A stretch of DNA of 64,000 nt. Origin: Novosphingobium sp. B 225. GTDB taxonomy: Bacteria; Pseudomonadota; Alphaproteobacteria; Sphingomonadales; Sphingomonadaceae. The notes under the pieces were generated by a model that worked only from the letters and a program-made list of their open reading frames with translations, ran no database searches and had not been told where the DNA came from. The DNA is taken from the NCBI RefSeq assembly GCF_002198665.1, contig NZ_MWLM01000054.1, positions 1 to 64,000 on the forward strand, read 5' to 3'. Numbering within the stretch: position 1 is the stretch's first letter; every line of letters starts with the position of its first letter. The translations under genes were made by a program, and so were the position numbers. This document shows, one piece after another, positions 1-1,415 of this stretch.

Positions 1-63
1 GCCGCCAGCGGGGGGCTGGGCGGGTTCCGGCCCAAGCTCTAGATTGAAGGGATCCTTGCCCAT
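1..63 (-). CDS. Unknown protein, N-terminus only
   Basis: Only the first 21 codons are inside the window, reading MGKDPFNLELGPEP and then a Pro/Gly-rich stretch. The ATG has a GGAAAGG ribosome site about nine bases upstream and begins 17 bases after the stop of the small gene 80-241. It is therefore probably the second gene of the sigma-54-driven operon. The start resembles neither PspA nor PspB. Function cannot be judged from this fragment. Confidence 0.55.
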   Translation of the reverse strand, partial: MGKDPFNLELGPEPAQPPAGG

Positions 64-79
64 CAGGCGCCTTTCCGGT

Positions 80-241
80 TCAGGCCTGCCGCGCGGCAGG
101 GGCCTGCTGCGCGATCTGGACCAGGGGATCGGCCTGCATTTGCTGGGCCAGGACGAAGAGGTTCATGCCGAGCATTGCGGCGATCGAAAGCGTGATCGCC
201 TTGTCGAGCTTGCTGGCGGACTTGAGTGACTTGGTGAACAT
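80..241 (-). CDS. Small single-span membrane protein under a sigma-54 promoter
   Basis: A 53-residue protein beginning MFTKSLKSASKLDKA, with a basic N-terminus, one hydrophobic segment (about residues 15-29) and a Gln/Ala-rich tail. An in-frame GTG lies upstream at 271, but the sigma-54 promoter at 276-292 places transcription start near 266. That makes the ATG at 241, preceded by GAGG, the usable start. It is divergent from the PspF-type activator, in the position pspA holds in enterobacteria, so an envelope-stress role is inferred from context only. No family is recognised. Confidence 0.7.
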   Translation of the reverse strand: MFTKSLKSASKLDKAITLSIAAMLGMNLFVLAQQMQADPLVQIAQQAPAARQA

Positions 242-275
242 GATGTGCCTCGTTGAAGCGGGTTTGTTCACCTTT

Positions 276-292
276 CAGCAAGGGGCGTGCCA
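276..292 (-). promoter_or_regulatory. Sigma-54 (-24/-12) promoter
   Basis: On the minus strand this reads TGGCACGCCCCTTGCTG, an exact match to the sigma-54 consensus TGGCACG-N4-TTGCW with the fixed GG/GC spacing. The predicted +1 is near 266, giving a leader of about 25 bases to the ATG at 241. The divergent neighbour is a sigma-54 activator, which supports function. Confidence 0.9.
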
Positions 293-357
293 AATGCGGT
301 TCGGGGCGGATTTTCGCCAGTTCGGTGGCTAATCGACGAACGACATGTCGGAATATC

Positions 358-373
358 TTCCCAATGTTGGGAA
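358..373. promoter_or_regulatory. Perfect 16-bp palindrome, candidate PspF binding site
   Basis: TTCCCAA-TG-TTGGGAA is a perfect inverted repeat. It lies about 92-107 bases upstream of the predicted sigma-54 start site, a normal distance for an enhancer site, and 20 bases before the activator's ATG. Binding there could activate the left operon and repress the activator gene itself, as Escherichia coli PspF does. That PspF is the ligand is inferred. Confidence 0.6.
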
Positions 374-392
374 TTTTCACTAGATATTGGTC

Positions 393-1415
393 ATGGAGCG
401 CAACACGCAGTTCGTCGGCCAGTCCACTGCCTTCCTTGACGCGGTTGAACGCGCCAGTCGCGCCGCACCCTTGCAGCGCCCGGTGCTGGTGATCGGGGAA
501 CGCGGGACCGGCAAGGAACTGATCGCCGAACGCCTGCACCAGCTGTCCCGCCGCTGGTCCGAACCGCTCGTCACGCTGAACTGCGCGGCGCTGCCGGAAA
601 CTTTGATCGAGGCGGAACTGTTTGGTCATGAGCAGGGGGCCTTTACCGGCGCTACCAGAGCGCGGGCCGGGCGGTTTGAGGAAGCCGACAAAGGCACGTT
701 GTTTCTCGACGAACTGGCTACGCTGTCCAGTGGGGCGCAGGAACGCCTGTTGCGCGCGGTTGAATATGGAGAGGTGACGCGGATCGGATCGTCACGGCCG
801 ATCAAGGTCGATGTCCGGATCGTCGCTGCCACCAACGAGGACTTGCCTCGCATGGCTGACGACGGTCGGTTTCGGGCCGACCTGCTCGACCGGCTGAGTT
901 TTGAAGTCATCACCCTGCCGCCGCTGCGGGTGCGCGAAGGGGATATCGGCGTGCTGTCGGAATATTTCGGCCGCCGCATGGCTGCCGAGCTGCACTGGGA
1001 ATCCTGGCCCGGCTTTTCCGAGCTCGCGCGGCGCCAGCTTGAGGACTACCAGTGGCCGGGCAATGTGCGCGAACTGCGCAATGTGGTGGAACGCGCGGTC
1101 TATCGCTGGGACAATTGGGATCTGCCGGTGGCCAGCATCCAGTTCGATCCCTTCGTCAGCCCTTGGAAACCGGCCGCGCCGGCGCGCGCAGACAACAGCA
1201 ACCCGGATCGCTCAGCCCCGCCACCCGCCGCCGCGCCCGATATTGAAATGGTCACGGACCTGCGCGGGGCAGTCGATGCGCACGAAAAGGCGATCCTGGA
1301 AACCGCGCTCGCCCGGCACCGCTACAACCAGCGCCAGACCGCGAAGGCGCTGGGGCTCAGCTATGACCAGCTGCGCCATGCGATGAAGAAGCATGGGCTG
1401 ATGGAGCGGGGGTGA
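393..1415 (+). CDS. pspF: PspF-type sigma-54-dependent activator
   Basis: A 340-residue bacterial enhancer-binding protein with no N-terminal sensory domain, as in PspF. The AAA+ domain shows Walker A GERGTGKE, the sigma-54-contacting loop GAFTGA and Walker B GTLFLDE. A Fis-type helix-turn-helix lies at the C-terminus (NQRQTAKALGLSYDQL). An upstream in-frame TTG at 387 is less likely than the ATG at 393. Such proteins hydrolyse ATP to open sigma-54 promoters; the obvious target is the divergent promoter at 276-292. The linker before the HTH is Pro/Ala-rich. No pspA gene is visible, so the regulon may differ from the enterobacterial one. Confidence 0.92.
   Translation: MERNTQFVGQSTAFLDAVERASRAAPLQRPVLVIGERGTGKELIAERLHQLSRRWSEPLVTLNCAALPETLIEAELFGHEQGAFTGATRARAGRFEEADKGTLFLDELATLSSGAQERLLRAVEYGEVTRIGSSRPIKVDVRIVAATNEDLPRMADDGRFRADLLDRLSFEVITLPPLRVREGDIGVLSEYFGRRMAAELHWESWPGFSELARRQLEDYQWPGNVRELRNVVERAVYRWDNWDLPVASIQFDPFVSPWKPAAPARADNSNPDRSAPPPAAAPDIEMVTDLRGAVDAHEKAILETALARHRYNQRQTAKALGLSYDQLRHAMKKHGLMERG

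Follow-up and report, generated by a model that had tools for sequence, protein, structure and literature searches.

A divergent pspF-psp control region in Novosphingobium sp. B 225, with a conserved single-TM leader gene and a pspA that is probably translated from two starts

The DNA analysed here (the window) comes from Novosphingobium sp. B 225, whose 3.7-Mb genome is spread over 73 contigs. It comprises the first 64 kb of contig C50, and its base 1 is the left end of that contig. Judged by its genes and motifs, a region close to this end controls both a pspF gene and, in the opposite direction, a psp operon of the known PspF-sigma-54 kind. The pspF gene occupies positions 393..1415 of the plus strand (ATG 393, with an alternative TTG at 387), and many of its relatives align from residue 2 or 3. 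Its product scores 485 bits against the NCBIfam equivalog TIGR02974, for which the cut-off is 444. Pfam places a Sigma54_activat (AAA+) domain at residues 10-172 and a Fis-type HTH at residues 300-336, and no N-terminal sensor domain was found when the protein was scanned with Pfam and NCBIfam. The PspF-type activator named in the initial annotation is borne out by this architecture, which is that of E. coli-type psp systems. The closest solved structure is the AAA+ domain of E. coli PspF, and Trp56, the PspA contact, is kept in the alignment. This residue is a tryptophan in 201 of 201 PspF copies from all fetched loci (these loci overlap and are not independent), and its conservation fits a model in which PspF is held by PspA. 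Joined to pspF on the same strand is a 61-residue ORF (1415-1600) whose start lies inside the pspF stop codon (TGATG). It carries a C-terminal hydrophobic segment, may represent a second small membrane protein, and has no NCBIfam match.

On the minus strand, positions 277-292 hold the predicted sigma-54 -24/-12 promoter TGGCACGCCCCTTGCT, which is the exact TGGCACG-N4-TTGCW match that had been claimed for it. All 30 pspF loci examined, among them the window, have a promoter-like element (at least 10 of 12 positions matched) at the equivalent position. The exact pattern has four matches in the 3.7-Mb genome, compared with none for a reversed-pattern control, and rpoN was found in the same genome. 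The other three exact matches lie together on contig C45, within about 2.5 kb (C45:3620-6134, L113-L115), where the sequence of L114 looks flagellar by eye.

The comparison began from 80 named loci, of which 78 have a canonical pspA start and 76 also have the promoter; with the window these make 77 loci. Two loci were dropped for want of a matched canonical start (L104 and L111) and two for want of a promoter in the short stretch before pspA (L033 and L056). The PspA comparison gave Novosphingobium and other Sphingomonadaceae records as the closest named relatives. A PspF-type UAS motif, ATAGCGAAATTTCCCAA, is found upstream of the promoter in all 77 loci, and in 73 of them 73-75 nt lie between the end of the distal site and the promoter. 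The motif was grown from the E. coli UAS and trained on the same 77 sequences that were scanned, so that its score margin over shuffles is inflated, while the fixed distance is unaffected. In the window, the predicted distal UAS is CTAGTGAAAATTCCCAA (367..383, minus strand) and the predicted proximal UAS is TTGGGAAGATATTCCGA (348..364, minus strand), 19 bp from it; across the 77 loci the second-best site falls at +20 in 49 and at +19 in two. The same matrix applied to the E. coli psp region returns two sites 20 bp apart, with TTAGTGTAATTCGCTAA at 11.8 bits, and the E. coli pspA promoter is described with two UAS in the literature (PMC3709507). The predicted gaps between UAS and promoter are 54 (55 in the window) and 74 here versus 64 and 84 in E. 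coli, which puts the sites about 10 bp, or roughly one helical turn, nearer the promoter.

By these motif matches, the conserved unit is a tandem pair of predicted PspF-type sites, as in E. coli, placed upstream of a sigma-54 promoter that diverges from pspF. The initial annotation had instead seen a perfect 16-bp palindrome acting as the enhancer. A PspF-type activator does face a sigma-54 promoter with an apparent enhancer, but the palindrome (358..373) is two abutting half-sites, the right half of the distal UAS and the left half of the proximal one. Nor is it perfect, for TTCCCAA-TG-TTGGGAA has 7-bp arms around an unpaired centre, with 7 of 8 pairs formed. Elements of this 7-2-7 form, whatever their sequence, occur five times in the 64 kb. 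Conservation in relatives had been proposed as a check, and the exact palindrome is present in only 3 of the 77 loci, window included, on which grounds we reject it as the enhancer.

The first gene behind the promoter encodes a 53-residue single-TM protein, MFTKSLKSASKLDKAITLSIAAMLGMNLFVLAQQ..., at positions 80..241 of the minus strand. With the +1 of the promoter assumed at about 265, the GTG at 271 lies upstream of the transcript, as had been argued, and translation is expected to begin at ATG 241. This start is preceded by a Shine-Dalgarno GAGG at 248..251 (minus strand), assigned from the sequence and its relatives, and AGG, GAG or GGA stands at that place in 74 of 75 relatives. Differences among leaders fall on the three codon positions as 645/399/1334, versus 270/312/234 in the 5' UTR (87 related pairs). 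A leader ORF lies between promoter and pspA in 76 of the 77 loci, the exception being L101, and promoter, small ORF and then pspA follow one another in 75 of the 76 named relatives with promoter and pspA on one contig. In the same-genus loci L012 and L015, the TM ORF was not listed. Given its conservation, codon-position bias and ribosome site, we reject a chance ORF and conclude from these signals that the 53-codon ORF at ATG 241 is a real gene. In the predicted structure, residues 9-36 form a long helix that is accompanied by a short one, at a mean pLDDT of 72. Neither the leader of the window nor the other short leaders tried reach the cut-off of any Pfam or NCBIfam family, and by sequence these libraries place the leader neither with LiaI nor in another named family. 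Leader ends of VELA or GELA type recur, and in several relatives cleavage sites of signal-peptide type (AFA-A-like) can be seen by eye.

Behind the leader, a further frame opens on the minus strand (ATG 63-61) and runs through base 1 (1..63), where the contig stops. The sequence to the left of base 1, in which pspA, pspB and pspC were to be sought, is therefore not on C50; all three were found at the start of contig C38, each over its NCBIfam cut-off. The first 13 bases of C38 are the last 13 of the reverse complement of the window, and the only PspA-family match in this genome is at C38:170-823, at the start of that contig. Because C38 opens with pspA-pspB-pspC and overlaps the window end by 13 bases, we take the ORF at base 63 to be pspA. 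A single open frame crosses the join: it begins at ATG 63 and reaches the canonical start MGIFSRTRDII (ATG at C38:167) after 72 codons. The putative join of C50 and C38 is based on the 13 bases and on synteny, in that unbroken relatives have the same order of promoter, small ORF and pspA (L101, L012 and L015 excepted), and it would place pspA, pspB and pspC in the driven operon. The initial annotation held that the driven gene is not pspA, which is right in so far as the first gene encodes the 53-residue membrane protein, but pspA comes directly after it. An ordinary pspABC operon beginning at base 63, named there as an outcome that would refute the proposal, is what C38 supplies, with the twist that its PspA is N-terminally extended. 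Several small membrane proteins do belong to the operon, as had been suggested, yet they do not replace pspA.

After pspB and pspC, C38 carries five small PspB-like ORFs. Their starts lie at 1571, 1864, 2145, about 2480 and 2764 (L227:1571-3030), each overlapping or abutting the next. All have a hydrophobic start and a PspB-like motif of RVKVLERIxTD type, so that they look like a tandem PspB-like array. Of 68 named loci, 65 have this motif at least once in the 4 kb that follow the pspA start. The PspB-like ORFs L001:1571, L001:1864, L001:2145 (in part) and L227:2764 have no Pfam or NCBIfam match above cut-off.

The frame ahead of the canonical PspA start is the second unusual feature of the operon. 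It is open from leader stop to canonical ATG in 76 of 76 loci, against 17 and 24 of 76 for the other two frames (L101, which has no leader, is left out of the extension counts, and the window out of the counts over 75 relatives). Of 75 relatives, 57 have a start codon (ATG, GTG or TTG) that shares one base with the leader stop; for the remaining 18, the chosen start is 2-23 nt after the first base of that stop. The window itself has no overlapping start, with 16 nt between the leader stop and ATG 63. Codon preference, rather than evidence of use, decided which codon was taken as the long start. Differences within the extension fall on the codon positions as 649/546/1423. Among 32 aligned long forms, a PLGPER-like beginning is seen in most, a motif SRLDxEVERLR recurs, and Arg46 and Arg55 are invariant. 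By eye, this motif resembles the C-termini of PspB and PspC.

These observations weigh against the best of the alternatives, namely that this is a plain psp operon making short PspA only, with a leader that is minor or a relic and an upstream frame that is untranslated and open by chance. We consider that reading unlikely, and it has real points in its favour. All 77 loci have GGAG ahead of the canonical ATG, at a constant distance of 12 nt. The extension varies from 32 to 102 codons, its gaps are multiples of three at the chance level (150 of 422, beside 57 of 127 in the leader and 28 of 172 in the UTR), and as modelled for a relative (L035) it is mostly disordered, with a low-confidence helix at 46-56 (pLDDT about 60). 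Nor is the extension family-wide, for fewer than 50 open codons precede the canonical start in 10 of 29 own-family loci and in 22 of 30 loci from other Alphaproteobacteria. The invariant GGAG, however, is always supplied through a GGA codon (codon -4), and GGA accounts for only 38 of 575 glycine codons (7%) in the pspA core, 168 of 1824 in pspF and 42 of 366 in the rest of the extension. Together, the frame open in all loci, the codon-position bias and the invariant GGA site suggest that both PspA starts are under selection. Two PspA isoforms, one long and one short, are the simplest reading of these sequences and a likely one.

How far the leader extends beyond close relatives was examined with a profile and with a survey of psp loci, in both of which the loci are the best-scoring ones, not a random sample, and related loci do not count as independent. 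The leader profile matches 74 of 199 family genomes at an E-value of 0.01, 71 of these at 2e-8 or better, while pspA is over cut-off in 184 of the same 199. In a sample from the order it matches 11 of 99 genomes, of which nine are strong matches, all in the own family, and two are weak. In each of the 30 leader loci retrieved for inspection, pspF is divergent and both the promoter and pspA are present.

The survey of own-family psp loci (31 in all, 30 fetched plus L166) gave a broader picture. Many of the leaders differ in sequence from that of the window. The promoter is more than 150 nt from pspA in 28 of the 31, and all 28 have an ORF of at least 35 codons with a TM-like segment (Kyte-Doolittle at least 1.6), a result obtained on the reverse strand in 5 of 28 and in a mean of 0.3 for shuffles. 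The remaining three comprise two loci with a short gap (L177 and L183) and one with no start matched (L193). Outside the family, 37 genomes had a match and 30 loci were analysed. The gap is long in 14 of these; in 13 the promoter element stands 48-81 nt ahead of pspA, as it does in E. coli, and in three no such element was found. Thirteen of the 14 long-gap loci have an ORF reaching Kyte-Doolittle 1.3 and eight one reaching 1.6, compared with 2 of 14 on the reverse strand at either level. A small TM-like ORF thus precedes pspA in 13 of the 30 sampled psp loci of other Alphaproteobacteria, where the ORF scored is the most hydrophobic of the gap and need not be the true leader. Several of these leaders have a C-terminal TM segment with a W-x-F-F-x-A-G-like pattern. 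The survey leaves out L162 (the C38 of this genome), L170-L175 (no pspA start) and L215, L218 and L220 (no promoter found).

Two variants seen along the way deserve mention. The own-family genomes L166 and L197 have leaders of 162-168 residues whose N-terminal hydrophobic segment is similar, and the L197 leader matches TonB_C at a score that falls just short of the Pfam cut-off. Six loci from other families of the order (L021-L025 and L031) have a small ORF of another type before pspA, which starts MN-I/M/T-L, often has a basic tail and shows no clear TM segment; PspA there has at most 34 open codons upstream.

Comparison with known systems places the operon close to pspF-pspABCDE of E. coli K-12, with which it shares divergent pspF, the sigma-54 promoter, the order pspA-pspB-pspC, PspF Trp56 and, on the predicted sites, a tandem pair of UAS spaced 20 bp apart. 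In E. coli, 67 bp separate the start of the promoter element from the pspA ATG and no gene lies in that interval, whereas a leader gene intervenes here. E. coli also has pspD and pspE, where the present operon has the leader gene, the extended PspA frame and extra PspB-like ORFs. In Zymomonas mobilis, ZMO1061-ZMO1065 are listed as four phage shock proteins and one hypothetical protein, ZMO1062, and the psp genes are reported there to go up under ethanol (PMC3495753). By number, ZMO1062 lies between ZMO1061 and pspA (ZMO1063), a place at which it might correspond to the leader. Extra PspB-like genes, as on C38, are known from psp operons with duplicated pspB, in the available part of whose description neither a leader gene nor a PspA extension is mentioned (PMC11237479). 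A membrane-protein gene in the operon of a PspA homologue is also found in Bacillus subtilis, where LiaI helps recruit LiaH to the membrane (PMC9239133). The LiaI-LiaH pair differs in being under LiaRS rather than PspF control, and no sequence family common to LiaI and the leader was found in Pfam or NCBIfam.

Given this anatomy, we think it probable that the locus is a divergent psp control region with a single-TM leader and a PspA made twice, the leader serving as a membrane partner. PspF would bind the two tandem sites (348-383) and activate sigma-54 polymerase at 277-292. For E. coli, it is reported that PspA holds PspF until membrane stress frees it (PMC9239133). The same would apply here, with PspA keeping PspF inactive through the Trp56 surface in unstressed cells and membrane damage titrating PspA away from PspF, as is known for E. 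coli. The transcript, once expressed, would yield in order the 53-residue leader, PspA, PspB, PspC and the five PspB-like small proteins. Long PspA would start at the end of the leader, by stop/start overlap in most relatives, and would carry a tail predicted to be disordered apart from the short conserved motif, while the short canonical PspA would use a Shine-Dalgarno of its own and begin at MGIFSR. By analogy with LiaI and LiaH, the leader would most likely be an additional membrane partner whose synthesis keeps pace with that of long PspA, and it may anchor long PspA or act as a sensor for it.

A different use of the leader would be as a SecM-like nascent-chain sensor acting in cis, in which slow insertion of its TM segment alters pspA translation and so reports insertion failure. 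A short TM or signal-like ORF directly upstream, with a start codon overlapping its stop in most relatives, is well placed for this, and TM-like ORFs of other sequence occupy the same place in other Alphaproteobacteria. RAPP-like arrest peptides are reported upstream of localization genes (PMC12992588). No RAPP-like motif was seen by eye in A2. The invariant or near-invariant columns of the leader are M1, L12, A15, S19, A22, M23 and Q34, and no highly conserved column lies near the C-terminus among the 37 leaders aligned. Because the conserved columns avoid the C-terminus, this hypothesis fits the position of the leader and not its conservation. The short PspA start also has an independent ribosome site, and we regard such a sensor as quite improbable. 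The reading from which the analysis set out, a psp-like response without pspA in which small membrane proteins are governed by an isolated palindromic enhancer, has in its favour the small first gene and the five PspB-like ORFs after pspC, but we reject it as having a negligible chance of being correct, since the window starts at a contig end, pspA follows directly unless C38 is misassembled, against which the unbroken relatives speak, and the palindrome is hardly ever exact.

As for the reading with a leader partner and two forms of PspA, a literature search that covered few subscription journals turned up no account of this leader family or of an extended PspA in sphingomonads, nor any paper pairing Novosphingobium with pspF, and both features seem undescribed in the literature searched. 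The locus also offers two cautions for annotation, in that ordinary operons may look novel where a contig ends and that the PspA start may get called in two places. A wider proposal, which goes further than the evidence obliges and which we consider rather unlikely, is that in the Novosphingobium/Erythrobacter part of the Sphingomonadaceae one gene makes two isoforms of PspA, a bacterial ESCRT-III protein. The long form would be coupled to and recruited by the TM leader and the short form independent of it, and the ratio of long to short would set the balance between PspF inhibition and membrane coating. A TM leader before pspA would then be recurrent in Alphaproteobacteria, in the form of unlike sequences. 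PspA polymers act on membranes via the N-terminal helix alpha-0 (PMC12358876). If the proposal is true, a conserved tail placed before alpha-0, together with a second start that omits the tail, would provide a bacterial ESCRT-III protein with a natural switch, and an unnamed family of small membrane proteins would join a well-studied stress response.
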